From Paraburkholderia phenazinium (GTDB lineage Bacteria; Pseudomonadota; Gammaproteobacteria; Burkholderiales; Burkholderiaceae): DNA of 64,000 nt. Both the position numbers and the translations under genes were made by a program. Positions 33,625 to 50,798 of the stretch are shown here, piece after piece (position 1 is the first letter of the stretch; every line of letters starts with the position of its first letter). The notes beneath the pieces are model-generated. The model ran no database searches. It was not told the DNA's origin and saw nothing but the letters and a program-made list of their open reading frames with translations. The stretch is taken from NCBI RefSeq assembly GCF_900142845.1, contig NZ_FSRU01000001.1:3286001-3350000 (forward strand). Direction: 5' to 3'.

Positions 33625-34956
33625 CTAGTCGTTCTGCGCATCCTGCTCACGCCTGAAAGGCTCTTCAAAGCGTGAGCCTCGACTTACACAAATGCCCGAT
33701 TCGAGCCACACATTGCGTAGCGTAACGGATTTACCTGCGTTCTTCAGATTCTGGGCAACGGATTCAATCGATGCTTGTGCCTCAAGTATGCGCGCGGCCG
33801 TATTAATGCTTCTTGCCGAGCGCCAACGCGCTGTGAGCATCGCCGCCTCCTCCGGCAGACGTTTCGAAATGGTTGAACGGTCGCAACCTATATAAGCCGC
33901 AACAGCCGCCACGGAGGGATCTTGCAGGACAGCAAGCGCAGAATCTATCTTTTCGCGCAACTCATCAAGAGAAGTGATCCGAGTTCGGCGCGCGTGAGGC
34001 TTATAGCGAAAGTCCGCCCCTTCGGAGCATTGCGCCGGGCCTCGCAACACATCAACGACATTTATACCGCATGCCGCGCAGAGCGCGAGCAGAGGGGCGT
34101 ACTTGATAAGCCTGACTCCGTGAATCCAATCGTATAGCCTGGCTTTGTTGAACCCGCATACTGCAGCTGCGCGAAATGGGAAGCCATCGCCTATCTGGGT
34201 CGCGAGCCCGCGGATACGCTCAGGCGCCAACGGTGCGTCAAAATTCTCGCCATCCGAGACCGCAGCAATGAGCATCGCTGACTGACGCGCCACCCACTGC
34301 TCTGCGAGCGACGCGCCTACGTGGGAAACCGCCCGGCAAGCGTAGGCGATCGAGCCACACTCGGTACAGACCCCTGGCATGTGAACTCTATGCCACCTCG
34401 GACGGCGTTGGGGTGTCTCCCGTCCGCATTCAGAATCGACCAGTCGCACCGCGTGAACCGGACAGCAACTGACTGCCTTAAGATCCCAAAGAAGCGGACG
34501 GTGCAGTTGGGCAAACTCTGCGGCTCCGTAGCACAGCGGACAGTGGCGAAGACGGAGAGAGGACATGCCCGCCAAATCTATGACGCCATCAAGAGAAGCT
34601 AGCGAAAGCCGACCGACCGCCTGAATTCCGGTCGCTCCGACGAGGGCGTCCCGGAGTGCCAGCGTGCGTTGCTTCGCAAAGACATCCACCGCGCGGTCTT
34701 TCATCCACGTCGAGAAATGACGCCAGATTTTGAAATCGTTTGCGGAATACCGCGCCAGTCCCATGTTGACCAGATCATCGACGCTAACGCAATGCGCCAA
34801 AGCCAACCTGCAAAGGTAACTCACCAGACCTTCGCAATCTCCCGTCCCTATCCCCATTGGCAGAAGCCCATAAAACAACGGAACAGGTTCTCGCGCCAGC
34901 GGTAGACCGGAACGCAAGTCTTCGGACATGGCGGACTGCATCGTATCTGCGTTCAC
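33625..34956 (-). CDS. TniQ/TnsD-family target-selection protein, copy 2
   Basis: A 443-residue paralogue of the neighbouring TniQ. The zinc module reads LRHCPLCYGAAEF, CCPVHAVRL and GVCTECGSIAYAC with the same order and spacing style. The HTH-like part is FRAAAVCGFNKARLYDWIHG. The GTG start at 34956 has GGAAGG upstream and follows the tnsC stop by one base, so it is co-translated. Two divergent TniQ proteins in one operon suggest two targeting routes, as with TnsD and TniQ in other Tn7-like elements. Confidence 0.82.
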   Translation of the reverse strand: MNADTMQSAMSEDLRSGLPLAREPVPLFYGLLPMGIGTGDCEGLVSYLCRLALAHCVSVDDLVNMGLARYSANDFKIWRHFSTWMKDRAVDVFAKQRTLALRDALVGATGIQAVGRLSLASLDGVIDLAGMSSLRLRHCPLCYGAAEFAQLHRPLLWDLKAVSCCPVHAVRLVDSECGRETPQRRPRWHRVHMPGVCTECGSIAYACRAVSHVGASLAEQWVARQSAMLIAAVSDGENFDAPLAPERIRGLATQIGDGFPFRAAAVCGFNKARLYDWIHGVRLIKYAPLLALCAACGINVVDVLRGPAQCSEGADFRYKPHARRTRITSLDELREKIDSALAVLQDPSVAAVAAYIGCDRSTISKRLPEEAAMLTARWRSARSINTAARILEAQASIESVAQNLKNAGKSVTLRNVWLESGICVSRGSRFEEPFRREQDAQND

Positions 34957-34957
34957 T

Positions 34958-36043
34958 TCACCTTCCCGCCACGAGCTTTTCCATCTCCGCAACGCGATCC
35001 AGATCAATGGTTGACTCATCGAAATTTTCTCTTATCAACATGGCTTCACCGGCCTCGACTGCTTTCCGGATCTTTTCGATAGAGTGCTTCTTCTTGAGCG
35101 CAACGGGTATGAAGCCTTCCTTCCACCTTCCCGAGTTCTCTATCTGGCAAATCAGACATCGCGTCAAAAATTCCTTCAGCAATCCGACGATACCTAACGT
35201 CGCCGTCAACAAGTCGCTTGCTACCAGTTCAAATCGCGGCACCAGCTCCAGTGGCCAGCGTTCCATCAGTTTTCTTATAATATTTTTGTACTCATCCACA
35301 TCGCTTTTGTTCCGAACTTTATCCGGTCGATCATTCCTGTACCGGCCGAGATAAACCATTTCGCCTCGCCGCACCACCTGGTCATAGTTTGTCACCATGC
35401 CGAACAGATCATAAGGCCCGATCAACAGAATCTGGGTTGAAACGGCGTCCGACAGGTCTTTCACCGAGTCCAAGGCTTTATCGTGATCACCATATCGCAG
35501 GATATGGAGAATTTCGTCAACGACGAGTAGCCGTGTGTCACGGTTTTTCAGCATCTGGCATACCGCATTTTGCAAAGCCGGGAGGTCAGCCCGACTACTC
35601 GAGCCGATCAGACGATTGTCCCGCACGCCCCATGAGCGCTTCGCGTCAATCATCGGTTCCTGACCTGCCTCCAGGATTTTTCTGAAAAAACCACCCCAGG
35701 ATACTTTTGCGGCTCCAAAAGCGGGCGCTCTCACATAAATATATGGCCGATGACCGGCTTCAGTCGAGTTCATCCGGGAACCAACTGTCTCGGCCAGCGC
35801 TGTCTTGCCCCCTCCGGTTGGCCCGAAAAGTGTAATTATTCCGGTATCGGTGCACGGCCCCAACAGATCCGTTAGCTTAGCTTCCGCACCGTCACGAAGA
35901 AGATGCTTTACTCTCAGCGAATAAAAGTAGCGAACTTTCTGCGCATCGGGAAGCGCGAGGACCTGCTCACGAGTCAGCCTGCTATACATCAGCCTCTCTT
36001 CGTACGTAATCCTGTGTATTGTCTTAGAGAAGTCCAGCTTCAT
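34958..36043 (-). CDS. tnsC: TnsC/TniB-type AAA+ ATPase
   Basis: A 361-residue AAA+ regulator of transposition. Walker A is GPTGGGKT (residues 74-81) and Walker B RLLVVDE (171-177). The N-terminal YSRLTREQVLALPDAQKVRYF and the sensor region TQILLIGPYDLFG are typical of TnsC/TniB. It would form the ATP-dependent platform that links TniQ with the TnsB transposase. I start at MKLDFSKTIHR with GGAGCGAGCCAG upstream, overlapping the tnsAB end by 20 bp. A longer frame upstream lies within tnsAB. Confidence 0.88.
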   Translation of the reverse strand: MKLDFSKTIHRITYEERLMYSRLTREQVLALPDAQKVRYFYSLRVKHLLRDGAEAKLTDLLGPCTDTGIITLFGPTGGGKTALAETVGSRMNSTEAGHRPYIYVRAPAFGAAKVSWGGFFRKILEAGQEPMIDAKRSWGVRDNRLIGSSSRADLPALQNAVCQMLKNRDTRLLVVDEILHILRYGDHDKALDSVKDLSDAVSTQILLIGPYDLFGMVTNYDQVVRRGEMVYLGRYRNDRPDKVRNKSDVDEYKNIIRKLMERWPLELVPRFELVASDLLTATLGIVGLLKEFLTRCLICQIENSGRWKEGFIPVALKKKHSIEKIRKAVEAGEAMLIRENFDESTIDLDRVAEMEKLVAGR

Positions 36044-38789
36044 CTGGCTCGCTCCATGCGGAAGAGGTCGGATCAGACAGCGCGGCAAGTTCGGCAGCCG
36101 CTTCTCCACCAGCTCGCGCGATCGCCGCATCGGGTGCCATGTCCACCTCCGAGGAATCGGGCCCAGAGGCTGAACTGCAAGCTGGTTCCTGACGAGGTAC
36201 CATGCCAAGATCAATGGCTCTTGCAGTTCCCATTCCAAGCGCCTTATAAAGCTCCAATTCGCTCTTCTGTTTCTTTGCAGTGGTCTCGTCAAAACTTATA
36301 GGCGTTCTTACCTGCCCAAGACGCACGGCCCGCGATGTCGTATGGCGGTCACGTTCTGCAGCAAGGCGGTTGAAATTTCGCTCCATCCGCTTGGCGTACT
36401 CCACTTCGTAGCGCGTTCGACCCCAGTAGGGCTCGAGGTCACGCGCGAGGGCCGTCACCCAGCAATGACCAACATAGACATAGATGACGTTCGCCAGCCA
36501 CGGCTCGTATCGGACCGGACACGGCTTCCCGCCGACCTTTGCAAATTCCGCATGCCAATAAAACATGCCGCTCTCCCACACACCCCGTTGCGCGTGAACC
36601 TTGTGTTCGCTGCGTGGTGGCGAAGGCGCCGTGAGCAGAAGCAGATTCTCGTCAAATTCGACCCGTATATGGTCCCGCCGGCCTGTCTGTTCGAGCCTGG
36701 CCTGCTCGTAGTCACACTGCGTCATACCCAGCCCCGGATGAACGTGCCGACGGTATCTGAAGTCGAAAAGAAAGGATTCCATCGCGCGGTAAAGCTGAGG
36801 GAACGTCCAGACAGCGCGGCGCGTAGGATCGACTGACTTGGTTACGGTGCGAGCCTCCTTCAACTGGATCGAACAGCCTTCCAGACCGGATAGCAGTTCT
36901 TCCTCGGTCAGACCGAATAGCCGCTCAACGTCTTTGCCGCCACGCGGTCGACCGCCTGCCCGATATCGCACATCAATGTTATGGATCTTGCAGAACTGTT
37001 CAACCGCGTGCGAGCGCATGTCGGCGCCACCGTCAAAGACCACAATCCGCGGCAGGCGCCTCCACCGACGCACATAGTCCCGGAGTGTCATGAGCACCGA
37101 CAGCGCGGATGGTGGACGATATGAGAGATAAAATGCGCGTGCACAGGTTACGTTACCGTCCACTGCCGCAGAGAGCCAGAGCTTTCCCCAGTCCTGTCCC
37201 TCAGGACCCTTCGTGAAGAGATTAGGCTCGGTGTGGTCGATGTAGCAGACTTCGTGGGGCGCTACGCCATCCACCGGCTCGCGCGCGTCCAGGATCAGAG
37301 GAATCTGCCCGTCCCGGTAGGCAACACGTTTGCCGAACCGGGCATTCGGGTCCTCGTATGCCTTGACCCGTTGGCACAATGTTGGATAAGACATGGGCAC
37401 GACACCCTGTTTAATGCATTCCTCGCAGTAGGTGTCGTAAGTCTTCTTTGCATTGCCGGCCGATGCCGCGTTATGAACGGTCTCAATCGTCGTCTTCGCA
37501 AGCAACTCGACCAGTGGTGGAAGCCGGGGTAACCGGTTACCTTTTTCTGCGTGATGCGGTGCGAGCTCGAGCAGGACATCCTGTACGAAGGTGCAGTCGC
37601 GTATTGCCTGCCTGGACCTGCCCAGAGTCGCATCGGAATACTGGTCTGCCCCGTCGTCCAAGATTACTGCCTTATATTTCTTTATTCCATCCTTGAGCTC
37701 CGTCCTGCTTAAGGAAGCGATGGCGCGCCGTTTCTCGCTGTTAAGCAAAGCAACGCGCTCTTCATCGGTTGCGCGCTCGGCCAGCAATTGCCTTGCTGTC
37801 TCGGTGGGGAGGCTCATTCTCCCTCCCGCGCCTGAAGTAAGAAGCACCTCCGCGTCCGGTCCTGTCGAACCCAAGATAACAGTCCACGCCTCTCCTCCAT
37901 ATTGCAGTCGGGTGCCGATTGGGCACGCTGCAAGGCCGGGAAGGGGCAACGGCTCGCACATGAAGTCGCCCCGGCGAATGAGCCGATCGGCCTCGGCAAG
38001 GTCAGCATCGCGGTGCATCAGCAGATCGGCGGGATTACCAATACTGTCGGTATTCAGATCAACGAACAGCACACCCTGGACGATCGCCGACAGCAGAACA
38101 TCCGCTTGGAATCCCTCACGCTTCATCATGTCATCGTAACTGACCGGACCGTTCTGTACGCATTGCCTTAGCCGCTCTGCCGTATCCGAGGAGAGAACCG
38201 GTGTCCTTGGATCGTAAAAATCCCGCAGATATCGAATATTCTCGAGAAACCATCGTGGAATCTCTCGGTTCGTCCGCAGTTGATGCGCAATTCCAAGCGA
38301 CCCGCAATATTGCTCGCATGCGCGGTCATGCCAGCGATCGCATTCATCACGCCAGAAGCGGCCCACCTTTTTCCATCGATCGTCTTCTTTCTTTTGCATC
38401 TGGAATAGGACCGTCTCCTCTTTCCAGTCCTCGAAGCGGGGCGCACCGTCCCCAAGTATCAGAAAATCGAACCAGTGCTGCGACTTGTTTGCGACGCTCC
38501 CATCTTCCCGTTGAGTAATTGCAGTGAATGAATGCACATTTGCATAGTATTCCTGAATTTTTTCGTCAAATTCATACCACATGGCCGCACTGGCGTGTAG
38601 CGTCCGGCTCTGTACGGTGACGCCCTGCTGCATTTTTGCGGAACGAATCGTCACGACCGTTCGTGTACCCTGATGATTGAACGGATTGAAGTCTGACTGA
38701 TTGCGCCGGATCTTCTCCACCAGTTCGCGCGTGGTAGCCGGCATCGGATGGCTTGCGAGATACTCAGCTAGTTCCAGTTGACCGAACAT
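36024..38789 (-). CDS. TnsA-TnsB fusion transposase
   Basis: A 921-residue protein. The C-terminal two thirds is a TnsB/TniA-type DDE integrase with Asp518 in VCYIDHTEP, Asp586 in IVVFDGGADM and Glu622 in GKDVERLFG, giving a D(35)E spacing. The first about 230 residues look like a TnsA restriction-like nuclease: Glu73 in MWYEFDEKI, Asp108 in HWFDFLIL and an E-x-x-K at 120-123 (RFEDWKEE), then a helix with AHQLRTNREI. A fused TnsA would allow cut-and-paste rather than cointegrate transposition. Start MFGQLELAEY has AGGTG upstream. It leads the tnsAB-tnsC-tniQ-tniQ operon. Confidence 0.85.
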   Translation of the reverse strand: MFGQLELAEYLASHPMPATTRELVEKIRRNQSDFNPFNHQGTRTVVTIRSAKMQQGVTVQSRTLHASAAMWYEFDEKIQEYYANVHSFTAITQREDGSVANKSQHWFDFLILGDGAPRFEDWKEETVLFQMQKKEDDRWKKVGRFWRDECDRWHDRACEQYCGSLGIAHQLRTNREIPRWFLENIRYLRDFYDPRTPVLSSDTAERLRQCVQNGPVSYDDMMKREGFQADVLLSAIVQGVLFVDLNTDSIGNPADLLMHRDADLAEADRLIRRGDFMCEPLPLPGLAACPIGTRLQYGGEAWTVILGSTGPDAEVLLTSGAGGRMSLPTETARQLLAERATDEERVALLNSEKRRAIASLSRTELKDGIKKYKAVILDDGADQYSDATLGRSRQAIRDCTFVQDVLLELAPHHAEKGNRLPRLPPLVELLAKTTIETVHNAASAGNAKKTYDTYCEECIKQGVVPMSYPTLCQRVKAYEDPNARFGKRVAYRDGQIPLILDAREPVDGVAPHEVCYIDHTEPNLFTKGPEGQDWGKLWLSAAVDGNVTCARAFYLSYRPPSALSVLMTLRDYVRRWRRLPRIVVFDGGADMRSHAVEQFCKIHNIDVRYRAGGRPRGGKDVERLFGLTEEELLSGLEGCSIQLKEARTVTKSVDPTRRAVWTFPQLYRAMESFLFDFRYRRHVHPGLGMTQCDYEQARLEQTGRRDHIRVEFDENLLLLTAPSPPRSEHKVHAQRGVWESGMFYWHAEFAKVGGKPCPVRYEPWLANVIYVYVGHCWVTALARDLEPYWGRTRYEVEYAKRMERNFNRLAAERDRHTTSRAVRLGQVRTPISFDETTAKKQKSELELYKALGMGTARAIDLGMVPRQEPACSSASGPDSSEVDMAPDAAIARAGGEAAAELAALSDPTSSAWSEPDEAGLL

Positions 38790-39514
38790 TCTGGCACCTG
38801 TAATCCATGCATCATGATTGCAACACACTTCTGATTGACGGCGGCGGGATACGGTGGATCCTGACCAACGCTTTTGCGTTCGCCATCAGTTACACACCTG
38901 ACACGTCCTGAAATAGCAGCTCATGCGCCATATTCCAACGATCGGAAGCCGGAGCACCCCAATCGCGCGCCCACTGTCAGGGACAAGCATAGCTTGCCTG
39001 CCCGGGAATCGAGGCATGACCTGCGGTGTGGGCACGTGGTGGGCGGCTGTTTCCAGGCCGTGCACGGCTGGCTGGATAACACGGGCACGTAAGAGCTTTT
39101 TCGGCACAAAATCGGGTTTTTATGGGAAAGCCGAAATGTCGATATATGTCCTACAACGGTTTTCAGAGCAGTCTGACGGAATACTGTTTGTATCGGAAAC
39201 ATCGTCTGTGGTATTTTGTTTCAATTGCTGATACGCGCAACCGCCATGTTCGATTGCGAACATCCGTCTTTCCCCATACCGGTTGCCGTTGTTATTTAGT
39301 TAACGGCACAAATAAATACACGGCAAAAAAATGGACGGTTGGCGCGTCATGCCGGGACGGTGAGCGCAATAATGCCACTCTGTTTCGCGTGATAATTAAA
39401 GTTATCATTTCTCCAGCGCTCTATCCCGGACATTTATCCCAATCAGTACGTCCTGTATGTATTGGAATAACCGCGAATCACATTAAAATCCGTTTTCGGG
39501 CCATAATCAGTTTT
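38790..39514. other. 725-bp non-coding, palindrome-rich region between tnsAB and the kfrA-like gene
   Basis: No believable gene. It carries several perfect or near-perfect inverted repeats: AACGC-TTTT-GCGTT (38867-38880), ATGTTCG-ATTG-CGAACAT (39246-39263), TGCCGTT-N11-AACGGCA (39284-39308), TGATAA-N6-TTATCA (39390-39407) and TTATCCCAAT-N17-ATTGGAATAA (39434-39470, 9 of 10 arm positions). The right part is AT-rich. This arrangement ahead of a KfrA-like protein and a tyrosine recombinase suggests operators and perhaps a recombination or resolution site. The right end of the Tn7-like element may also lie here. Confidence 0.55.
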
Positions 39515-40324
39515 ATGAGCCGCGCTCCGTCCAATTCCCCCGAAGCCGTTCGTGCGACCGTAATCGCTTTGCTGGCCGAAGCTGGTCAACCCGCGCCTGC
39601 GTCAACGGAAGAGTTCCGCCGTCACGTCTCGGTCCGACGAGTCAGGGCGAGGCTCGGGGGCGGTGACACCACAGCGTTAGGGCGGACGATAAACGAGATT
39701 GAAGTTGAACTCGTCGCAGCGGGCCGGGCGCACCTGCGCGTGCCGGACATTCCGCCACACGTCTCTGACCTGATGCGAGGGTTATGGACTGCGGCACTGG
39801 ATGCGCAGACCCACGAGATACTTAAAATCCAGCAGGCGGCGGCCGAATCCGTGGAGAACGCCGAGACCGAGCGCGACAATGCCCGCGCGAGGGTGGATCT
39901 GCTGAAGGTGGAACTGGATGATCTGCGTCAGGATCTTTCCACCCGTGACGAAACGGTTGGCGAACTGCGTGCCCGACTCGCGGAAACCGAGACGCAGCTG
40001 GAAGCAGCAAATCGCAATGCACGGACTATGGCGGATCGGCTCGATGAGATGAAGTCCCAGCGCGATGAGGCACACCGCGCTTACCAGGAGCGCGTTGATG
40101 CACTCCGACTGCAATTTGACGGCCTCGGCAGGCAACTCAGGCTTGAGACCGACACGCTGCGGCAGGGGATGGTGTCTGAAAAGGCAGCCCTCGAAGGAGG
40201 GTTGACGAGAGCATCGCAAGTGATTGAAAGCCAGAAGCAAATCATTGAGGAACTCCAGGCCGACCGGCAAAAACTCAGGAGCGAACTCGCGGGCCAGCGC
40301 GATGCGGATTCCCCGGTCCGGTAG
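39515..40324 (+). CDS. KfrA-like DNA-binding coiled-coil protein
   Basis: A 269-residue protein. The N-terminal about 100 residues match the KfrA/plasmid-replication DNA-binding domain (SPEAVRATVIALLAEAGQP, VRRVRARLGGGDTTALGRTI). The rest (about 105-265) is one long heptad-rich coiled coil (for example LKVELDDLRQDLSTRDETVG). Similar proteins (TnpT) work with a tyrosine recombinase (TnpS) in cointegrate resolution of Tn4651-type transposons; KfrA on plasmids aids segregation. The recombinase gene follows by 35 bp. Start MSRAPSNSPEA chosen by domain; no clear Shine-Dalgarno. Confidence 0.82.
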   Translation: MSRAPSNSPEAVRATVIALLAEAGQPAPASTEEFRRHVSVRRVRARLGGGDTTALGRTINEIEVELVAAGRAHLRVPDIPPHVSDLMRGLWTAALDAQTHEILKIQQAAAESVENAETERDNARARVDLLKVELDDLRQDLSTRDETVGELRARLAETETQLEAANRNARTMADRLDEMKSQRDEAHRAYQERVDALRLQFDGLGRQLRLETDTLRQGMVSEKAALEGGLTRASQVIESQKQIIEELQADRQKLRSELAGQRDADSPVR

Positions 40325-40359
40325 TCAGGCCGCCCGTTCACTGTTTGAAAGGTTGCATC

Positions 40360-41838
40360 ATGATGCCTTCCGCGTGGATCGACGCGATGGTCGCACCGCC
40401 GCGGCGACTGCCAGACCGAATCGACGACGCGATCGAGTATGTGTCTGCGGCGCTGGGTGTCCCTGTCTATGAACGATGGACACCGGCAACGCTGGCACGT
40501 CGTTATCCGTCGATGACCGCCGCGAAGAGTGCCCAGCCGGCAGTGTTCAATCTGCTGCTCGATTCGCTCGAAGCCGTGCAGTTCTGGCACGCTGGCACCA
40601 TCGTGGTGATGACAAGCGAGCAGGCGCCCACCTCGGGACAGGTGCTGGAACAGCTGTTACGCACCCTCACCGTCCGGTTTCGCCTGACGCACCCGGATGC
40701 AACGAAACGTTCAGCAGACAATCACCCGATCCCGAAGGGCGACGGCCATGCAGTTGCTATAACCGGTTCCTCCCATGATGAAAGGTGGTTGGCGAGAACG
40801 GGCAGGTTCTTCAACGCGGACCCCAGCACAAATACCCTGAGCTCGACGAACGACGCGACGGCACTCCGTGCATTCCTCGTTGACCGTACCGGCCGGTCTT
40901 TGCATACCCGGCGCGCGTACGTGACAGAGCTGAAACGGCTGATCGCGTGGTGCCAGTGTGCCGATCTCGGACCGTTATCAGGTCTCACCCGCGAACACTT
41001 GATCGCATTCCGTGATACGCTGCCTCATATTTCAGCTCACGCTACCGCCCACCCGCTTGGAGCAGCAAGCTGCGCGCGCGCCATGGCGGTCGTTAAAAGT
41101 CTTTACCAGTACTGGGCGAAAACGGGCTATATAACGGTGAACCCCGCACTGGAACTCGGGAGTACCAAGGGCGAACGACCCACGTTCGAGCCGAAGCGCT
41201 TTCTGCCAGACAGTGCCACTGAAGCGTGCGATGCATGGATTAGCGCGTGGCTTAGCGCCCCGCCGGCCAACGCAAAACGGAACCGCCAGGCAACCATCCT
41301 TGGCCTCTACCGTTATACAGGTGTCAGACTGGCCGAGCTTGCGTGGGAAGACGGCTATCCACTGCTTCATACAGACCGGACAGGATGGACACTCGAGGTG
41401 AAGGGGAAAGGTCAACGCGTGAGACGCATTCCCCTTCCTGCTCAATGTGTCAGCTGCATCATGCGTTACCGCGAGTCGCGGGGACTACCGCCCGCTCCGT
41501 CTCCGATCGAAGACATGCCTCTCATCCACACCACACGAGGACACGGGCTGGGACGAAGCGGACTATATCGCGAGGTGAAGCTGGCTTTCGAGGAGATCGC
41601 AGGCCAGCTTCCAGCCAACGACATCGCCGGACGGTTCGCCCTCATGGCCGCGTCAACCCACTGGCTGCGACACTCGTACGTGCATCACCTTGTTGTGAGC
41701 CATCAGGTGCCACTGCCCGTGGCGCAAGCGCTCGCCGGTCACTCATCCGTGCAAACCACGGCAGCATATGCCCTTACCGATCAGTCGCAGCTGCGTAAAT
41801 TTGTGTCGGAAAGCTTCGGCGACGTGCCAGCGTCGTGA
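40360..41838 (+). CDS. Tyrosine recombinase/integrase
   Basis: A 492-residue site-specific recombinase. The catalytic set is visible: Arg in YRYTGVRLAELAW, Lys in EVKGKGQRVRRIPL, H-x-x-R in HWLRHSYVHH, His in LAGHSSVQTTAAYAL and Tyr in the same motif. The core-binding SAM-like domain starts near ALRAFLVDRTGRSLHTRRAY. An unusual extra N-terminal region of about 150 residues precedes it. It forms an apparent operon with the KfrA-like gene. It may integrate or resolve the island, or be a TnpS-like resolvase. Confidence 0.88.
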   Translation: MMPSAWIDAMVAPPRRLPDRIDDAIEYVSAALGVPVYERWTPATLARRYPSMTAAKSAQPAVFNLLLDSLEAVQFWHAGTIVVMTSEQAPTSGQVLEQLLRTLTVRFRLTHPDATKRSADNHPIPKGDGHAVAITGSSHDERWLARTGRFFNADPSTNTLSSTNDATALRAFLVDRTGRSLHTRRAYVTELKRLIAWCQCADLGPLSGLTREHLIAFRDTLPHISAHATAHPLGAASCARAMAVVKSLYQYWAKTGYITVNPALELGSTKGERPTFEPKRFLPDSATEACDAWISAWLSAPPANAKRNRQATILGLYRYTGVRLAELAWEDGYPLLHTDRTGWTLEVKGKGQRVRRIPLPAQCVSCIMRYRESRGLPPAPSPIEDMPLIHTTRGHGLGRSGLYREVKLAFEEIAGQLPANDIAGRFALMAASTHWLRHSYVHHLVVSHQVPLPVAQALAGHSSVQTTAAYALTDQSQLRKFVSESFGDVPAS

Positions 41839-42318: not shown

Positions 42319-42669
42319 GAGAAGGCGATAAAGATCGTTCAGAGTCCTGACTACTTCGATGCGCAGGCACGTCGACTTCTGTTACCCCTTCTCACGGAGG
42401 ACGACAAATGGCAGCTTTTGGGAATCGACTTCGGTGTGGCAGCGTGAGAGCACGACTGTGAATTTCTGATGTGCTTCGCCTTTCAAGCAGCGAATGCCGA
42501 ACTGTCAGCTGCTAGTCCCTACGTTGAAATTGGCTTCTCCTTGCCTGAGAGTTCCGCTGCCGAGTCAGAGTTCATTCCGACAATCGAAACGGTGTTCGGC
42601 ACCGGATTGCCCGCGTTCAATGAGGGTCACGCGCTCACAGGAACCATAAGTGCTTCCGCGCCGAGATAG
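42319..42669 (+). pseudogene. C-terminal fragment of an unknown protein, with in-frame stop
   Basis: One plus-strand frame is open from the IS66 remnant junction: EKAIKIVQSPDYFDAQARRL ... WQLLGIDFGVAA, then an in-frame TGA near 42446, then EHDCEFLMCFAFQAANAELS ... GTISASAPR and a stop at 42669. Composition looks like real protein on both sides of the TGA. The 5' part is missing, apparently lost at the IS66 junction. I do not recognise the family. Its 3' end overlaps the end of the convergent ImmA gene by 43 bp. Confidence 0.5.
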
Positions 42670-43562
42670 ACGCCCAACGTCAAAGCGTCGTAGCGATTGA
42701 AAAATGTCTCGAAGAAAAACCGGTGCGAATCTCCATTGTCATCCGTCAAGATGAGCTCTCGTTCGCCAAGCAGGCCGCCCTTCTGTCGTCCGCAATAGCT
42801 GCTCACTGCGTTGAACAGCTCCACTTCAGTGATTCTGGAAAATCTTGCGTGAAAAGCGTGCGACTGAATCAGATGGCGGCATGGACTTGCTGGATCAAAA
42901 TTGATCGGGCGACGATCCACATGCGGGTGGCAGGTCATGAGGCCCACTACGGGAGTTTCCTGTCCGACGCTCTCGACGAAGCGATAGAGGGTCGTTGAAA
43001 GCGTATTCCCATACGTATTTTTGAGATCGATTATTGATTGAAGACACGCCGGCGAGGAGCGGGCTTCGTTCACAAACCGGTCCCGAAGGAAAAGTAGCCG
43101 ACCGGCCGCGAAATTAGCCTCGGTTTCAATCTGTTCGGCGCAGTCTCTCGAGACCGTGTTCTCGTTATCGCCATGCATCATGTCCTGATGCCAGGGAATG
43201 AGACTGTGGCCAATTTCGTGAGCTTCATTCCATCGGTGCTTGAGCAGTGGTACCGCACTGTCTAGCATGATCCGCTTACGATCAGGCAGGTAAAGTGCTT
43301 TCAGAGAAAATTTCTTCACTGCATCGAGAATCAGCGCGGGCCGGCGGTATACCTGCACGGCCGCGACGCGGATTCGGCTGATGGCTTCCCGAGCCAGACC
43401 AGGATCGTCCGAGGTGTAGAAAGCCAGATCTAACTTGAGGAGCTCACGAACATCTTCAAGCCGCAACGGAGGCTCAGGGTTGCCGAGGCCCCGGAGCACC
43501 CGTTCAACTCGACTGTCGATGTCATTTGAAGTCCTGGCAGAAAGAATCAGATTCCTGGCCAT
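42627..43562 (-). CDS. ImmA/IrrE-family metallopeptidase
   Basis: A 311-residue protein with the zinc peptidase motif HEIGH in WNEAHEIGHSLIPWHQDM and a downstream Glu-rich helix (CAEQIETEANFAAGRLLFLR) that supplies the third ligand. ImmA/IrrE enzymes cleave or inactivate partner repressors, for example in ICEBs1 and in Deinococcus DdrO control. The XRE regulator directly upstream in the same operon (21 bp gap) is the obvious partner. It is last in the RHH-GNAT-XRE-ImmA operon facing the ubiquitin-like operon. Confidence 0.88.
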   Translation of the reverse strand: MARNLILSARTSNDIDSRVERVLRGLGNPEPPLRLEDVRELLKLDLAFYTSDDPGLAREAISRIRVAAVQVYRRPALILDAVKKFSLKALYLPDRKRIMLDSAVPLLKHRWNEAHEIGHSLIPWHQDMMHGDNENTVSRDCAEQIETEANFAAGRLLFLRDRFVNEARSSPACLQSIIDLKNTYGNTLSTTLYRFVESVGQETPVVGLMTCHPHVDRRPINFDPASPCRHLIQSHAFHARFSRITEVELFNAVSSYCGRQKGGLLGERELILTDDNGDSHRFFFETFFNRYDALTLGVYLGAEALMVPVSA

Positions 43563-43583: not shown

Positions 43584-44075
43584 TTACTTCTGCTCGCTGA
43601 GTACCGCGACGAACGCCTCCAGGGCGGAGCGCTCGGTTTCATTCAGGTCAGTGACCTTCTCGGATCGAGCCGCGAACCGTATTGCTTCATTGGCAAGATG
43701 GCTATCGCGCTGTTGCGATAGACCGGCCAACTGCATCAACTTCGAACTGGGAATCGCGAAATAGCCTGCCAACTGGAAGACAGTGCGCGGCTCCGGTCTG
43801 TAGTGTGAATCTTCCTCAATTTCTACGAGTTCGGTGACGTCGATGTCGGCAGCTTCCGCGAGTTTCTCGAGCGTCTGCTGTCGTCCCCTTCTCATGAGTC
43901 TGACAAATCTGCCAAAAGCTATCCTGGGATCGGCGGATTCCTCCATCGCATACTCCGGACGCTGTGTGGATGGGTCTGCGGCAAACAGGCCAGCACCGAT
44001 CTCGACGTCTGTTCCATTCTCGTGCTCAAGCCTCGCCATTTTCAGGCACCAATCTTTCGTTACTTCAAATTTCAT
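43584..44075 (-). CDS. XRE-family HTH regulator, probable ImmA partner
   Basis: A 163-residue protein. The HTH is in FGRFVRLMRRGRQQTLEKLAEAADIDVTELVEIEEDSHYRP, and a helical C-terminus (SSKLMQLAGLSQQRDSHLANEAIRFA) follows. The order XRE then ImmA is a known regulator-protease pair in mobile elements. The first about 50 residues are extra and acidic. GGAGTCTAGTC precedes the ATG, and the gene starts 2 bp after the GNAT stop. It may bind the operators at 44953-44993 or its own site. Confidence 0.82.
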   Translation of the reverse strand: MKFEVTKDWCLKMARLEHENGTDVEIGAGLFAADPSTQRPEYAMEESADPRIAFGRFVRLMRRGRQQTLEKLAEAADIDVTELVEIEEDSHYRPEPRTVFQLAGYFAIPSSKLMQLAGLSQQRDSHLANEAIRFAARSEKVTDLNETERSALEAFVAVLSEQK

Positions 44076-44077
44076 GA

Positions 44078-44701
44078 CTAGACTCCTTTGGCGATGAACG
44101 CCTCCGCCTGTTCAGGCGTCATCTCAAAATAGCGGAGGTTCTCCTTGGCGGAATCAATTCCCAGGTCCGACATACCGCATACGTTTGCGTACCAAGCGTT
44201 GGCCTGCGGCAGCGAGTGAAGTCCAATTCGTCCGCCAAATCCTTCACTACGGCTAAGCTCGATAGCCGCGCGGACTAGTAGCGTTCCCACGCCTTTCAGA
44301 CGTGGATGTTCAGCGGAGAGGCCAGGGCGATTCCATGGCGCCGTTTCGAGGTACTGGATATAAACGAGCGGCTTGCCCTTCTGATGCGGCAACCGGCAGG
44401 ATTCCAGGGTTTCGACAATCATCAGGCCCTGGGTCATCCCCTGGCACACGATGCTGAATGATGGAGCCGCAAGCAGGCCTTTGAAGGCCTCGGCTTTTCT
44501 GCGCCAGTCCCAATGCCGGTTCTGTGGCCAGAATCGCCTGTCGACACCCTTCTCCTTTAGCTGCTGAAGCGCTCTCGCGAGCGCGGGCATCCAGGCATCT
44601 TCCCAGTCGCTAACGTTGGAATCGGAAATGCCCTCGATCAGGCTTGCCTCAACGGCCGCGTCCGAAGCGACATCAACTAGGTATACCGGGAATTGGCTCA
44701 T
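44078..44701 (-). CDS. GNAT-family N-acetyltransferase
   Basis: A 207-residue protein. The acetyl-CoA-binding region is RLKGVGTLLVRAAIELSRSEG and a C-terminal GNAT strand-helix ends in ANAWYANVCGMSDLG. Upstream YIQYLETAPWNRPG is the substrate-side strand seen in RimI-like GNATs. Its ATG overlaps the stop of the RHH gene by four bases. RHH-GNAT pairs are often type II toxin-antitoxins (TacAT type), but those toxins are about 160-180 residues and the match is not close, so a modifying enzyme of the ubiquitin-like system is equally possible. Confidence 0.78.
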   Translation of the reverse strand: MSQFPVYLVDVASDAAVEASLIEGISDSNVSDWEDAWMPALARALQQLKEKGVDRRFWPQNRHWDWRRKAEAFKGLLAAPSFSIVCQGMTQGLMIVETLESCRLPHQKGKPLVYIQYLETAPWNRPGLSAEHPRLKGVGTLLVRAAIELSRSEGFGGRIGLHSLPQANAWYANVCGMSDLGIDSAKENLRYFEMTPEQAEAFIAKGV

Positions 44702-44913
44702 AGCATCACAACTTCTGCCTTTTCCTTGGTTTTCTCATCCTCGAAAAAAAACTTGTCGCCTCGCTCAGCCCGTACTTCGACAGCCTGATAAAGCCGCAGC
44801 GCCTGCCGAAGGACCGCCGTTTTGCTCAGATCCTTCTTTTCGCAAAGCTCCTCGAGCGCACTCATCTCAGCATCAGTGAGATTTAGGGTCATAGTCTTTT
44901 TTGATGTGGCCAT
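44698..44913 (-). CDS. Ribbon-helix-helix (CopG-like) DNA-binding protein
   Basis: A 71-residue protein. TMTLNLTDAEMSALEELCEK and SKTAVLRQALRLYQ give the strand-helix-helix of RHH repressors; a charged tail ending AEVVML follows. AAGGAG lies in front of the ATG. It leads the minus-strand operon and starts 24 bp downstream of a -10. The palindromes between the divergent promoters are the natural sites for autoregulation and for repression of the ubiquitin-like operon. Confidence 0.82.
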   Translation of the reverse strand: MATSKKTMTLNLTDAEMSALEELCEKKDLSKTAVLRQALRLYQAVEVRAERGDKFFFEDEKTKEKAEVVML

Positions 44914-44937: not shown

Positions 44938-44999
44938 ATTTTAGGTCCAAAAAATAGCCATGTCAAAGCTATTGACTAGCTAAAATTTAGCTATATAAT
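44938..44999. promoter_or_regulatory. Divergent promoters with overlapping palindromic operators (RHH operon / ubiquitin-like operon)
   Basis: Plus strand: TTGACT (44972-44977), 16 bp, TATAAT (44994-44999), leading to the triple-ubiquitin gene. Minus strand: TTGACA (complement of 44961-44966), 17 bp, TAAAAT (complement of 44938-44943), leading to the RHH gene. A perfect 17-bp palindrome TAGCTAAA-A-TTTAGCTA (44977-44993) fills the plus-strand spacer. A second inverted repeat AATAGC-N9-GCTATT (44953-44973) covers the minus-strand -35. Binding there should shut both promoters. Confidence 0.8.
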
Positions 45000-45047: not shown

Positions 45048-45785
45048 ATGAACATAACGATTGAAGATCTGCAGGATGCGCTGGCGGCAGGCCGCACGAT
45101 CCGCGACCATGGCCCATATCATGTGCGGATCGGGATGCAAGGATTCGACTTCAAGAAGGTCGTTCTTGCTGAGCCGGTCGTGACCGGCAACGCAATCCTC
45201 GAAGCGGCCGAGGCATTTCCCGTCGAGCAGCACCTCCTCTTCAGGATTACGCGAAGTGGCGTGACGGAAGAGATCCGCCCTGATTCGGCGTTGGATTTGC
45301 GCCTGGACGCTGTGGACAGGTTTGTCGTGTTTCGGAGTGATCGCACCTTCCGGTTCCTGCTGGATGAGCGTGCATTCGACTGGGGCGCATCGCAGATTTC
45401 AGGCGCCACCCTCAAGCACCTCGCAGGCGTTGACATGTCAGATCACGATGCGTGGCAACTGGGTACGGACGGGACTGAAGCGTTGATTGAGGACGACTGT
45501 TTTGCCGACCTTGCAGCACCCGGTGTTGAGCGCTTCATCACCCGACACACCGGGCTGACCATCGTCGTGAATGGCAAGCGCAAGGAGGTATTCCGACGTC
45601 GCCTGTCGTACTGGGAGGTCGTGAGGCTCGCGTTTCCCGACGCGGTGAAGAGCGAGAACATCATCTATACGATCAACTATGCTCGCGGTCCGCACGCGAA
45701 TCCCGAGGGCTCGATGGTCGATGGGCAGCACGTGAAGATCAAAGAAAATATGGTGTTCTATGTCACTCCGACTGATCGCTCTTAA
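45048..45785 (+). CDS. Multiubiquitin-domain protein (three ubiquitin-like repeats)
   Basis: A 245-residue protein made of three beta-grasp-like repeats: about 20-95 (YHVRIGMQGFDFKKVVLAEP to FVVFRSD), 96-165 (RTFRFLLDERAFDWGASQIS to RFITRHT) and 166-242 (GLTIVVNGKRKEVFRRRLSY to KIKENMVFYVTPT). The pattern matches the bacterial multiubiquitin family. It lacks a visible C-terminal Gly-Gly and ends TPTDRS. The gene has GGGAGAACAG before the ATG and its 3' end overlaps the E1-like gene by 26 bp. It is the putative modifier or scaffold of the system. Confidence 0.82.
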   Translation: MNITIEDLQDALAAGRTIRDHGPYHVRIGMQGFDFKKVVLAEPVVTGNAILEAAEAFPVEQHLLFRITRSGVTEEIRPDSALDLRLDAVDRFVVFRSDRTFRFLLDERAFDWGASQISGATLKHLAGVDMSDHDAWQLGTDGTEALIEDDCFADLAAPGVERFITRHTGLTIVVNGKRKEVFRRRLSYWEVVRLAFPDAVKSENIIYTINYARGPHANPEGSMVDGQHVKIKENMVFYVTPTDRS

Positions 45786-46947
45786 TCAGGACCTGCGTCG
45801 CCTGCGCGACGAAGGATATGAACTGGAAATCAGATCAGGCTACCTGCTTGTTCATTCCATACCGTACGTAAATTCGAGGCGTGAAGTGTGCCTTGGGGTT
45901 CTCGTGTCGGAAATGAATATGGCGTCTCCTGACGTTCTCGATCGCCCCAACACGCATCAAATCTATTTCGTTGGGGAGCATCCGTGCAACCCTGACGGAT
46001 CTGAACTTGTCCAGATCAAGAACGGAACGAAAACCTACCAGTTGGCCGACAACCTTGTCGCGAACCACTACTTCTCGAACAAGCCGAAGTCCGGCGCGTA
46101 CGAGAATTACTACGAGAAGGTAACGACCTACGCCAACGTCATTTCAAACCAGGCGAGAGCCCTTGACCCGACTGTGGACGCGCGGACATGGAAAACGGTC
46201 GACTCCGCTGAGGATGAGTCCGTTTTTCTTTACGAAGACACCGCATCGAGTCGTGCCGGCATCCAAGCGATCGCCGCACGCCTGAAGCACCAGCGCATCG
46301 CGATAGTCGGGCTCGGTGGGACCGGTGCGTATGTACTTGACCTGGTGGCGAAAACGCACGCCAAGGAAATCCACCTTTACGATGGAGATCCGTATCGGCA
46401 ACACAATGCGTTCAGATCGCCTGGCGCTGCATCGCGCGAAATGCTCAATCGCCGGCTCAGTAAGGTTGCGTACTGGGTTGAAGTGTATTCGGCCATGCGA
46501 AAAGGTGTCGTGCCTCACGAGGTCATGATCAGCGAGACCAACGTCGCGGAGCTGTCGGGCTATGACTTCGTCTTCATCTGCGTAGACAAAGGTGAGGTTC
46601 GGCAACTTATCGTTCGGGAACTCGAACGGCAAACTGTGCGGTTTATTGATGTCGGAATGGGGATTAACCTCACAGAAGACGGAAGCCAGCTCTGGGGTAC
46701 CTGCCGCATCACCACCAGCACGCCCGCGACCCGTGCGCTTGCGTCCGCCCGAATCCCCAAGGTGGACCGCGATGACGAAATATATGGCTCGAACATACAG
46801 ATCACCGACCTGAACTGTCTGAACGCAACCCTGGCCGTCATGAAATGGAAGCGTCTTAGCCAGTTCTACGTTGATGACCGCAACGAGTACGACTCAACCT
46901 ACAACGTTAATCTGAACCAGTTGACAAACGAGGAGCCCGAATCGTGA
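45760..46947 (+). CDS. ThiF/E1-like adenylyltransferase with N-terminal DUF6791-like domain
   Basis: A 395-residue E1-superfamily protein. The Rossmann ATP-binding motif is IAIVGLGGTGAYVLDLVAKT (G-x-G-G-x-G at 184-189), with the acidic strand end IHLYDGDPYRQHNAFRSPGA and FVFICVDKGEVRQL. A Cys in LWGTCRITTSTP is a candidate for thioester chemistry. The N-terminal about 165 residues (GEHPCNPDGSELVQI and so on) form a separate domain of the DUF6791 type; its role is unknown. It would adenylate the ubiquitin-like protein. Overlaps on both sides (26 bp and GTGA) show tight coupling. Confidence 0.82.
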   Translation: MSLRLIALNQDLRRLRDEGYELEIRSGYLLVHSIPYVNSRREVCLGVLVSEMNMASPDVLDRPNTHQIYFVGEHPCNPDGSELVQIKNGTKTYQLADNLVANHYFSNKPKSGAYENYYEKVTTYANVISNQARALDPTVDARTWKTVDSAEDESVFLYEDTASSRAGIQAIAARLKHQRIAIVGLGGTGAYVLDLVAKTHAKEIHLYDGDPYRQHNAFRSPGAASREMLNRRLSKVAYWVEVYSAMRKGVVPHEVMISETNVAELSGYDFVFICVDKGEVRQLIVRELERQTVRFIDVGMGINLTEDGSQLWGTCRITTSTPATRALASARIPKVDRDDEIYGSNIQITDLNCLNATLAVMKWKRLSQFYVDDRNEYDSTYNVNLNQLTNEEPES

Positions 46948-47411
46948 AGGTTAGCGGGTTCAAACCAATGTTTGTCGAGTACATCCCCGATCGGCTCGAC
47001 GAGGGTGTTCTCTATCTGTCGATGGAGTTCGCCACTGCCTCTCATGCGTGCGCCTGCGGATGTGGCCGTGAGGTAGTCACACCGCTGTCGCCGGTTGGAT
47101 GGCAAATGCGCTACGACGGAGAGAACGTCAGCCTTGAGCCATCCATCGGCAACTGGAGCTATCCCTGTAGATCCCATTACTGGATCAAGGGCGGGCATGT
47201 CCGCTGGGATAGCGAGATGCCGCAATGGGCCATAGATGAAGGCCGGGAGCGCGACCGGCAAGCAACAAGAAGATATTACGCGGAACGATCGAATCCGGCA
47301 GCGCCCGCAGCACAGGTCGAGCAGGCTCCGCAGTTGCATGACGTAACCCAGGAAGCAGACGTCCCCGTCTCGCGTACCTGGTGGGAAAGATTGATTTCTG
47401 TTTTCCGGTAA
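46944..47411 (+). CDS. DUF6527-like cysteine/histidine protein of the ubiquitin-like operon
   Basis: A 155-residue protein with a GTG start overlapping the E1 stop (GTGA). Cysteines in SHACACGCGREVVTPLSP and a C-x2-H in YPCRSHYWIKGGHVRW could bind zinc or serve as catalytic residues. The tail from about 115 is Ala/Glu-rich and ends RTWWERLISVFR. I associate this pattern with DUF6527 proteins found beside ThiF and multiubiquitin genes. No JAB peptidase or classical E2 is encoded nearby, so this protein may supply the missing conjugation or processing step; that is inference. Confidence 0.7.
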   Translation: MKVSGFKPMFVEYIPDRLDEGVLYLSMEFATASHACACGCGREVVTPLSPVGWQMRYDGENVSLEPSIGNWSYPCRSHYWIKGGHVRWDSEMPQWAIDEGRERDRQATRRYYAERSNPAAPAAQVEQAPQLHDVTQEADVPVSRTWWERLISVFR

Positions 47412-48964: not shown

Positions 48965-49783
48965 TCAGTCCAACCCCTCCGCCGCGCTCGCCGCTTCGAG
49001 GTCCGGCCTGAGAATGTTCCAGTGCAAAGTTAGATCGCCGCGTTCGGCGTTGAATTCACCCAGCCCCATGCTGTCGACAGCGAGGTTGATCAGGTGGATC
49101 GCAGCGGCGTTGGCACATAAAAGCGTCGACGCCATGTCGGACGTATCGGGCCCGAAGAAGTACGCGTCTGGCTCGCCGTCGATACCTTCCCTCATGTGGC
49201 GAACAAATGCACCCAGCGTCGCGTGTGCCCCGTTCCCGGATGTGAACCTGTACGAAAGTTCGTAGAGCAGCGTGAGATCTGACTCATGAGCAAGCGTCGC
49301 AAGCTTCAGTGATCGCGGCCTGTCATACTGCGCTTCAATCTCAGCTTTCCTTCTCCTGAAAATTTCCAGCCGTTCGTCCCCAGCGTCATTTCCGTTGAGT
49401 TCGAGAACCCGGTTACATACACCGAGATCGTGCGCTGCATCGTCCTCGCGGAGGCGTTCGAGCGTGCCCTCCACCTTTGCCAATCCGGCCGTTACGATGA
49501 CGGATTCTGTGCACAAGCGTGCCAGCGCACGAGCCTCTGGCAGCGCTCCGCGACTAGCCATCAGGATGCCCCCCTGGAACGCTCCCAACGCCCGTACGAA
49601 CCCGGCAATGGCCCACTTTACTTCCTCGCGGAGCTCGTTCAGATCAAAAGCCTTCCGCATTCGCATTCCCATCTCGTTCGCGCGCCCCGCGAACTCGAAG
49701 GGCCCGGCGAACAGTTCACGCGCAGCCGTCTGCCAGCCCTCAAGATCGTCAGACAGGAACCCGACTTCATCAAAACTCGCCAT
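48965..49783 (-). CDS. DUF5677-like helical protein
   Basis: A 272-residue all-helical protein with no signal peptide. The segment ALARLCTESVIVTAGLAKVEG with the preceding EARALAR and the late HATLGAFVRHM ... ANAAAIHLINLAVD pattern resemble DUF5677, a family of unknown function often found in accessory regions. It converges with the ART-like gene. GC and codon use are like the core genome. Confidence 0.55.
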   Translation of the reverse strand: MASFDEVGFLSDDLEGWQTAARELFAGPFEFAGRANEMGMRMRKAFDLNELREEVKWAIAGFVRALGAFQGGILMASRGALPEARALARLCTESVIVTAGLAKVEGTLERLREDDAAHDLGVCNRVLELNGNDAGDERLEIFRRRKAEIEAQYDRPRSLKLATLAHESDLTLLYELSYRFTSGNGAHATLGAFVRHMREGIDGEPDAYFFGPDTSDMASTLLCANAAAIHLINLAVDSMGLGEFNAERGDLTLHWNILRPDLEAASAAEGLD

Positions 49784-50215: not shown

Positions 50216-50506
50216 ATGGTCGGAACCACTGTTGATAACAAGACAGCCGATGTGCGTACCCGAATCGAACCGGAATTGAAGGAAGCAGCCGTGAAGGTAC
50301 TCGCACAGAACGGGCTAACGCTGTCTGACGCGATGCGCCTGTTCCTTCGCCAGGTCGTGCTTTACAAGGGATTGCCGTTTGAGGTTCGGCAACCAAATGA
50401 GGCAACAGTAAGAGCGCTCAGGGAATCCCGGGCGATGCGGGAAAAGGCGCGCTTCGGCTCTGTAGCGGAGCTAATCGATGAGCTTGAAAAAGAAGGGCGC
50501 AAGTAG
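50216..50506 (+). CDS. RelB/DinJ-family antitoxin
   Basis: A 96-residue antitoxin. The RHH N-terminus is TADVRTRIEPELKEAAVKVL and GLTLSDAMRLFLRQVV, the standard RelB/DinJ pattern, then a toxin-binding helix SVAELIDELEKEGRK. It overlaps the toxin gene by 29 bp, so the two are coupled. The protein should bind and neutralise YafQ and autorepress the operon. Confidence 0.9.
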   Translation: MVGTTVDNKTADVRTRIEPELKEAAVKVLAQNGLTLSDAMRLFLRQVVLYKGLPFEVRQPNEATVRALRESRAMREKARFGSVAELIDELEKEGRK

Positions 50507-50798
50507 CAAACGTACGACGCTGCCCCTGCGCAGCGACATGAGTAAGGATTTCAGGAAGGACTGGAATCGGCTGTCGGAGTCGGGGCGTTATGACCTTATC
50601 CGGCTCAAGCGGGCCATGATGCTGCTGGGCATGAATGAGGGGCCGCTGCCGGCCGAGTACCAGGACCACGCGTTGACTGACGACTGGAAGGATCACAGGG
50701 AGTGCCATGTTGGCGGCGACTTTCTTTTGATCTACCGGATCACAAAGGACGCGGTGATTTTTGTACGGGCGGGGACTCACCCGGAGCTATTCGGCTGA
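50478..50798 (+). CDS. YafQ-family mRNA interferase toxin
   Basis: A 106-residue RelE/YafQ-type ribosome-dependent endoribonuclease. SKDFRKDWNRLSESGRYDLI and the C-terminal HRECHVGGDFLLIYRITKDAVIFVRAGTHPELFG match YafQ, including the late H-x-E-L-F ending. The His in GTHPELF is the expected catalytic residue. A clear terminator follows the stop. Confidence 0.9.
   Translation: MSLKKKGASSKRTTLPLRSDMSKDFRKDWNRLSESGRYDLIRLKRAMMLLGMNEGPLPAEYQDHALTDDWKDHRECHVGGDFLLIYRITKDAVIFVRAGTHPELFG

Follow-up and report, generated by a model that had tools for sequence, protein, structure and literature searches.

We propose, with moderate confidence, that a three-gene operon in Paraburkholderia phenazinium encodes a reduced type 6e ubiquitin-like (Ubl) conjugation system, sister to Bub, in which an E1-like enzyme would adenylate the serine end of its modifier, the DUF6791 domain and/or the DUF6527 protein would complete transfer, and CapH/CapP-like or RHH regulators would exert control. 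Such a reduced system is probably defensive. Support at the sequence level comes from the gene set, a conserved modifier tail, an intact adenylation site, a conserved Cys/His set and a mobile setting; adenylation, transfer, target, metal binding, regulation and the defence role are what we infer.

The operon lies in the 64,000-nucleotide stretch of DNA analysed here (the window). As the initial annotation had it, three tightly overlapping genes encode a modifier with three ubiquitin-like repeats, an E1-like enzyme with an extra N-terminal domain and a small Cys/His protein of the DUF6527 kind. The open reading frame coordinates proved exact, and Pfam assigns Multi_ubiq (PF14452, 5.6e-41, three stretches) to the first protein, DUF6791 (PF20590, residues 10-161) and ThiF (residues 173-299, 1.7e-11) to the second, and DUF6527 (PF20137, 5.1e-25) to the third. 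The operon has the following features:

45048-45785, forward strand: Ubl modifier gene, 245 aa, three Multi_ubiq (beta-grasp) repeats
45147-45335, forward strand: Ubl repeat 1 (PF14452 match in its own genome, converted to window coordinates)
45348-45548, forward strand: Ubl repeat 2 (PF14452 match)
45558-45776, forward strand: Ubl repeat 3, with the conserved tail after it (PF14452 match)
45760-45785, forward strand: Ubl/E1 overlap, 26 bp in two frames
45760-46947, forward strand: E1-like enzyme gene, 395 aa, DUF6791 plus ThiF/E1 adenylation domain
45787-46242, forward strand: DUF6791 domain (PF20590, 2.3e-56), in the position that JAB occupies in the sister type
46261-46944, forward strand: E1 adenylation domain, residues about 168-395 (88-sequence alignment)
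46944-46947, forward strand: GTGA, 4 bp shared by the E1 stop and the DUF6527 start
46944-47411, forward strand: DUF6527 protein gene, 155 aa, predicted metal-binding
47043-47063, forward strand: H34-x-C36-x-C38-G39-C40 motif of DUF6527 (C36, C38, G39 and C40 in 89 of 89 sequences, H34 in 87 of 89)
47166-47177, forward strand: C75-x-S77-H78 motif of DUF6527 (89 of 89)

Across 91 entries (the window itself and 90 loci, among them L001, which is the same locus as that in the window), E1 and DUF6527 are always present and Ubl is present in 90, the remaining locus (L051) being cut by a contig end; hence, the gene set is not a chance association. The expected co-occurrence held in one direction: every complete locus pairs the DUF6791-type E1 with both partners, and DUF6791 occurs in 7 of 299 genomes of the phylum, the window's own included, all seven of which hold the other two families. 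The converse fails, as DUF6527 is found without Multi_ubiq in 4 of the 12 DUF6527-bearing phylum genomes and Multi_ubiq without DUF6791 in 3 of the 10 Multi_ubiq-bearing ones (two of these three, G310 and G451, have JAB-type operons). Viral contigs and phage records yielded no relatives, and a DNA search of complete genomes of E. coli gave no match.

This gene set is not new, its operon type having been predicted in 2006. Section 14 of Iyer et al. (PMC1779556) describes, among type 6e polyUbl operons, a subset with an uncharacterised E1 domain instead of JAB. The subset agrees with the window operon in having a Ubl with one to three repeats (here, three Multi_ubiq stretches), an E1 with an unrelated N-terminal domain (here, DUF6791 with ThiF and no JAB) and a small protein bearing a metal signature of the C-x3-C... 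type (here, C36-x3-C40...C75-x2-H78), although the published signature ends in H-x2-C and that of DUF6527 in C-x2-H. A JAB-like role of the N-terminal domain is given there as speculation, and the type 6e account in that section does not include the serine end or the constant overlap described below.

The sister branch has Prok-E2_E together with a JAB domain fused to E1, and it matches the Bub proteins of Citrobacter, whose structures are solved (BubA/BubB/BubCD; PDB 9ea4, 9ea5, 9ea8, 9eae, and 9eav). Bil and Bub operons are described as complete with an E2 and a specific protease (PMC12687455). Bub has a related E1 adenylation domain, but it also has a separate E2 (PF14462, Prok-E2_E) and a JAB fused to E1, whereas the window operon lacks such an E2, carries DUF6791 in the place of JAB and has a modifier that ends in Ser. 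PF14462 has no match in the window genome, and because the Ubl and E1 genes overlap, there is no room for an E2 gene between them. The reported absence of E2, JAB and RING families near the operon was confirmed by zero Pfam matches among the 20 window proteins scanned. As read from its genes, the operon is without a peptidase and without a separate transfer enzyme, unlike its closest characterised relative, so the chemistry by which the modifier is attached may be different.

The beta-grasp fold expected of the first protein is borne out by its matches to Multi_ubiq and to a solved multi-ubiquitin structure (PDB 9cd2, E 1.2e-85). The latter, the ZDHYS365 multi-ubiquitin protein, is a close relative that also ends in Ser (TDKS); as far as PDB names show, the modifier alone was solved. 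The window Ubl has the mature-looking C terminus VTPTDRS, without Gly-Gly as first noted, and the proposed search of its homologues for conserved C-terminal residues returned a terminal Ser in all 90 entries, which represent 89 distinct loci. Ser, not Gly, stands at the modifier end in nearly all relatives examined. In the overlap, the Ubl end V-T-P-T-D-R-S-stop is read in one frame and the E1 start M-S-L-R-L-I-A-L in another; 88 of 90 entries share its length of 26 bp, and the E1 start is in register with Ubl in 10 of 10 further loci. Codon use indicates that selection acts on the Ubl frame of the overlap (this test omitted the window row, with L001 kept instead, as well as L010, L051, L006, and L009, the last two having no start codon in the E1 register). 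On this sequence evidence, the modifier end is a conserved Ser under selection in its own frame. We rejected the idea that a Ser end is exclusive to the JAB-less branch: of 14 JAB-type loci, 12 had readable Ubl ends (L147 and L149 were left out), and 10 of these have a Gly within the last five residues or at the Ubl-E2 junction TTEG, but two (L131 and L145) also end in Ser.

The second protein has the ATP-binding and adenylation residues typical of E1-like adenylating enzymes. GxGGxG, D208, D210, R219, K235, and D276 are invariant in 88 of 88 aligned E1s, an alignment made without L001 (the window locus), L010 (near-identical to L007) and L051; loss of the ATP-binding residues across homologues, which would have spoken against the initial annotation, is thus not seen. 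No cysteine is invariant in the same alignment. When the E1 model was searched by Foldseek, a VIA look at the top 1000 chains found rows that span the E1 domain only. In a viral-library search with this model, E1/ThiF types were the strongest among the 50 matches listed, many of the others were methyltransferases or capping enzymes and some were unnamed; no ubiquitin-conjugating enzyme was named among these 50.

The third protein is predicted to bind metal. C-x-C-G-C...C-x-S-H is common to all 89 aligned DUF6527 proteins (counted without L001 and L010), and the predicted structure has a pLDDT of 82.3. A Rieske-like or treble-clef identity was rejected, since Foldseek and VIA gave no significant match; PDB sequences likewise gave nothing significant (best E 0.8), nor did a second search. 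An absent fold match does not prove a new fold. We also rejected C38 as a mark of JAB-less operons alone: the middle Cys is present in 5 of 11 JAB-type DUF6527s read by eye (L147, L150, L151, L152, and L154), and so C38, although invariant in the JAB-less branch, also occurs outside it. All 11 lack H34. The invariant Cys/His set slightly favours the idea that the third protein participates in a reduced conjugation system. In one specific version, which we consider doubtful, the pathway would run without an E2, a maturation peptidase or a conserved E1 Cys: E1 would activate the obligatory Ser, and DUF6527 would take the acyl group and deliver it to the target. C38 is the candidate acceptor because it is the invariant Cys left over if C36, C40, C75, and H78 hold the metal.

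Alternatively, DUF6791 might be a hidden E2-like domain, such that the second protein is a Cap2-like E2-E1 fusion that transfers Ubl, perhaps via C76, and DUF6527 is a metal-binding adaptor only. We think this unlikely, with odds that are not exclusive because the best explanation allows either DUF6791 or DUF6527 as the transferring part. Cap2 has an E2-like domain fused to E1 and a partner peptidase, Cap3 (PMC12355090). The window E1 domain weakly matches PADLOC E1-E2 models (2.1e-07) and, like CBASS type II Cap2, has an N-terminal domain ahead of it, but the operon has no cyclase and no Cap3-type JAB peptidase, and DUF6791 has no significant profile match to Prok-E2_E or PDB sequences where Cap2 has its E2-like domain. 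Of 88 aligned E1s, 84 have C76, as do 107 of 120 close homologues and all 10 further loci, yet it is replaced by H, Y or R in the other 4 of the 88. The element order of the DUF6791 model (helix, strands, a loop with P75/C76/G80, two strands, helix) is compatible with an E2 but proves nothing. The HPC-x3-G run of DUF6791 looks like the HPN region of E2 enzymes, and operons with DUF6791 lack the separate E2 gene that the sister type has. Against this, HHalign with Prok-E2_E, the single E2 family compared, gave scores inside the null range, 15.96 in one direction and 13.79 in the other: reversed controls scored 12.23 and 14.38, and for the second direction a set of 100 block-shuffled controls reached 19.97, at least 12 of them above 13.79. 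E-values were 0.062-0.094 with fewer E2s and 0.26 in a separate comparison. Pfam has no E2 match in the E1 protein, and a DUF6791-only profile found no E2 in PDB, its best match being an unrelated enzyme (E 0.029). Since these comparisons gave nothing above null, we demoted the E2 reading to a rival.

The E1 might also make Ubl-AMP, a C-terminal adduct or a sulfur carrier, with the product acting as a signal or carrier, not a protein tag. MccB makes a C-terminal adduct on a peptide, and sulfur carriers (ThiS/MoaD with ThiF/MoeB) end in Gly-Gly. The strictly conserved Ser end, found in 90 of 90 entries, differs from the latter; moreover, the sister Bub type has both JAB and an E2, and the Bub paper speaks of protein conjugation in its title, which leaves non-conjugating use improbable. 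Finally, the operon could be a degenerate remnant of a Bub-type operon after loss of E2 and peptidase, with Ubl as a scaffold without chemistry. JAB and E2 are indeed absent, as is the E1 crossover CLxC motif that most of the sister type has, but conservation of the ATP-site residues, the tail and the DUF6527 motif extends over many phyla, so decay does not fit and we find this reading hardly credible.

In the window, the operon is part of a mobile island and follows a predicted divergent promoter that contains a palindrome:

44972-44999, forward strand: predicted operon promoter TTGACT-16-TATAAT (consensus match only)
44977-44993: 17-bp palindrome TAGCTAAAATTTAGCTA, covering the spacer of the operon promoter and the final base of its first hexamer
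44938-44966, reverse strand: predicted divergent promoter TTGACA-17-TAAAAT of the regulator genes (consensus match only)
44698-44913, reverse strand: RHH DNA-binding protein of the CopG type, encoded divergently to the operon (PF01402, 2.2e-05)
44078-44701, reverse strand: GNAT-like protein adjoining the RHH gene (PF00583, 0.0019, below the Pfam cut-off)
43584-44075, reverse strand: HTH regulator, possible CapH counterpart (PF12844, 7.5e-11; PADLOC capH only 0.025)
42627-43562, reverse strand: M78/ImmA-IrrE-like peptidase, CapP-like (PF06114, 2.8e-06; PADLOC capP, 1.2e-10)

The island is defence-like, as originally described, with mobile-element, regulator and toxin-antitoxin genes; among the window genes scanned, none beside the operon make up a complete known defence system. 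A search of the island for inverted repeats did not reveal convincing element ends, and the 64-kb window holds no tRNA. The GNAT and RHH genes stand between the window HTH and M78 pair and the operon. Upstream neighbours of the operon are often HTH regulators, with capH in 20 of 78 (80 loci minus L051, which has no neighbour, and the near-duplicates L056 and L064, giving 77, plus the window HTH); downstream, 67 of 79 neighbours were scanned. These CapH/CapP-type neighbours strengthen the suggestion that the operon may have an anti-phage role.

For the reduced conjugation system, we suggest that the E1 domain most likely engages the last repeat of the modifier and adenylates the C-terminal Ser, which is ready-made and so would render a maturation peptidase unnecessary. 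The activated Ubl would then be passed on without an invariant E1 catalytic Cys, and the fused DUF6791 and/or the Cys/His protein DUF6527 would help to move it to a target. The operon is probably repressed by the divergent HTH/M78 (CapH/CapP-like) or RHH regulators and released by DNA damage or infection. Bacterial Ubl systems are closely related to ubiquitination in eukaryotes, and this operon is very widespread, having kept a perfect adenylation site and a constant Ser tail and dropped the usual transfer Cys and peptidase. The Ser tail, the C38/H34 pair of DUF6527 and C76 of DUF6791 offer single-residue handles on its mechanism. Such an operon would show either the minimal machinery for conjugation or a different use of activated Ubls.

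The operon had been placed by the initial annotation at 45048-47411, and the positions of its three open reading frames (45048-45785, 45760-46947, and 46944-47411) proved exact on checking. Pfam matched the first protein (Ubl) to Multi_ubiq in three stretches, the second (E1) to DUF6791 and then ThiF, and the third to DUF6527. The E1 also falls in the NCBIfam hypothetical-protein family NF004805 (531 bits; cut-off 352). In PADLOC, its E1 domain weakly matched Cap2-type E1-E2 models only (2.1e-07), and the Ubl and DUF6527 proteins had no significant match. A fifth type of operon described previously encodes one to three Ub-like repeats, an E1 that is usually JAB-fused but in a subset is fused to an uncharacterised domain instead, plus a protein bearing the signature C-x3-C...H-x2-C (Iyer et al. 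2006, PMC1779556). The gene set in the window is that subset. Operons of the polyUbl kind reappear in a 2024 review (PMC11354881); our literature search found no paper naming DUF6527 or DUF6791 and nothing further on this branch.

Protein searches scored 7057 of 8000 candidates as relatives of the E1 and 5946 of 5971 as relatives of the DUF6527 protein, with the best 120 of each set listed; among the matches listed, Paraburkholderia supplies the best named relatives for each of the three proteins. A genome scan confirmed at least 540 relatives, and the best 80, which were kept, include Proteobacteria, Bacteroidetes, Cyanobacteria, Acidobacteria, Streptomyces, Nitrospira, and two archaeal MAGs. 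Within the window's family, ten loci were found in 9 of 200 genomes (the window's own genome included). We compared 91 entries, i.e., the 80 scan loci, the ten family loci, and the window. E1 and DUF6527 are present in 91/91 and Ubl in 90/91, in the order Ubl-E1-DUF6527, with DUF6527 lying ~2 kb further downstream at three loci (L042, L044, and L066). DUF6791 occurs in 7 of 299 phylum genomes, again counting the window's own, and all seven also hold Multi_ubiq and DUF6527. Multi_ubiq occurs in 10/299, three of which (G310, G433, and G451) lack DUF6791. DUF6527 occurs in 12/299, four of which (G258, G261, G364, and G472) lack Multi_ubiq; it was also matched in one control genome, Caulobacter vibrioides. 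Among plasmids, 121 of 72,556 records carry an E1 relative; none was found in the phage records searched.

In the window, the operon's island has a G+C content of 0.566, versus 0.626 for the rest, and includes two TniQ genes, TniB, an rve-type transposase (a match below Pfam's cut-off), a KfrA-like gene, a tyrosine integrase, RelB-YafQ, and IstB. Gene groups noted in the window are:

32167-38828: two TniQ, TniB, and the rve-type transposase; a Tn7-like/Tni transposition module adjoining the operon's island
39122-41838: KfrA-like protein, then tyrosine integrase
48965-49783: DUF5677 protein
50216-50798: RelB antitoxin and YafQ toxin

A Klebsiella plasmid copy of the operon likewise lies beside TnsD-type transposition genes.

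The Ubl ends in serine in 90/90 entries (89 distinct loci), most commonly as T-D-K-S (50 of 90). Ten more loci, drawn from phylum genomes and plasmids, all show this serine end together with an ATG at the matching register; six of the ten may come from species already among the genome-scan loci. Database homologues end in serine in 68 of 71 cases, the other three being shorter with unrelated ends. The Ubl/E1 overlap is 26 bp in 88/90 entries; the exceptions, L006 and L009, lack a start codon at this register, and where their E1 begins is uncertain. Because the tail is encoded over the E1 start, the question is which frame is constrained. Of 86 loci compared, 84 keep Ubl T at -4 and all keep S at -1. 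The E1 residues encoded over this tail are variable by contrast, with ten or more different amino acids at position 4, four each at positions 5 and 8, and five at position 7. Random synonymous E1 codons would be expected to give 27.9 T and 24.9 S, a calculation that ignores relatedness and codon bias. We infer from this contrast between frames that the exact Ubl end is selected in its own right, as expected if the Ubl carboxylate is a substrate. The initial annotation had noted that the modifier ends without Gly-Gly; indeed, none occurs anywhere in the window Ubl, so it is probably a single three-domain modifier rather than a chain precursor.

Operons with a JAB-E1 fusion form a sister type. 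In these, Prok-E2_E is encoded by a gene of its own or within a fusion, a Prok-JAB domain is present, and most also have a DUF6527 gene (Pfam on ten of the proteins; L150 matches JAB below cut-off). Citrobacter BubB is matched by their E2 (7.7e-11; 1.5e-24 with a profile) and BubCD by one of their E1s (1.1e-29), sequence matches that identify this type as Bub. The aligned BubCD segment contains no cysteine in its crossover region. Bub thus offers a related E1, solved together with its Ubl and E2, that has no crossover cysteine; lack of that cysteine is hence not peculiar to the window operon. The tyrosine of GYITG, a residue common among JAB-type E1s, is number 372 in the BubCD chain's own index (370 there is Arg) and becomes Y370, the residue mutated in PDB entry 9eav, once the numbering is shifted by two, as the JAB aspartate of the D104A mutation indicates. 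By eye, it apparently corresponds to Y342 of the window E1, kept in 86/88.

Several side features were also seen. Ubl and E2 domains are fused in L146, L147, L155, and L156 (L155 by Pfam, the others by HMMs or eye), and in all but L147 a TTEG at the junction resembles a cleavage site. A large phosphotransferase-annotated gene lies between E1 and DUF6527 in four JAB-type operons (L129, by position and eye, L150, L151, and L157), and a UvrD-type or ATP-dependent DNA helicase gene directly upstream of Ubl, in the same orientation, in L155, L162, and L164. Among viral structures, the E1 model best matches a crAss001 'thiamine biosynthesis protein' (BFVD A0A385DVW5; 427 columns, E 2.8e-12, rmsd 11.5).

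In the DUF6527 protein, C36, C38, G39, C40, C75, S77, and H78 are invariant (89/89) and H34 is kept in 87/89. Database homologues keep the pattern in 119/120, with S77 in 113 and alanine in 6. Of eleven JAB-type relatives compared by eye, all have C36, nine have C40, five have the middle cysteine, and H34 is absent from every one; additional ligands are missing in L153 and L154. On this conservation pattern, a four-ligand metal site of C36, C40, C75, and H78, with C38 and H34 spare, is a reasonable but unproven reading. Structure searches with the model (pLDDT 82.3) gave no convincing relative.

Upstream of the operon lie divergent RHH, GNAT-like, HTH, and M78 genes. The RHH and GNAT-like genes form a pair (44078-44913) that resembles GNAT toxin-antitoxin pairs. 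The interval between the divergent genes and the operon holds two facing promoter-like sites (44938-44999; 0.3 expected), and a 17-bp palindrome that occurs nowhere else in the window spans the spacer of the operon's site; it may be an operator on which the divergently encoded regulators act. Nearest upstream neighbours (n = 78, i.e., 77 loci plus the window's HTH, scanning the nearest gene alone so that outer partners are uncounted) were HTH_3 in 29, capH in 20, M78 in seven, capP in six, and WYL in two. One paper (PMC13373217) reports that CapH with CapP, and likewise CapW, regulate neighbouring immune operons in response to DNA damage, and that phage protection by Bub operons is undemonstrated. 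Among the first 25 families listed, downstream neighbours (n = 67) are mixed: AbiEi three, dCTPase three, DNA methylase models two, and single restriction and cyclase genes.

Compared with the literature other than the Bub papers, the new findings are that the Ubl's serine end is conserved and selected within the overlap, that the adenylation site is intact with no E1 cysteine invariant, that DUF6527 has an invariant Cys/His set, and that regulator genes often lie next to the operon. No mechanism was assigned to this kind of operon in the literature found. The operon is real, widespread, and mobile, and of a kind predicted in 2006; it is most likely a reduced conjugation system in defensive use. 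As for its chemistry, we lean slightly toward a scheme in which the E1 would adenylate the serine end and DUF6791 and/or DUF6527 would complete the transfer.
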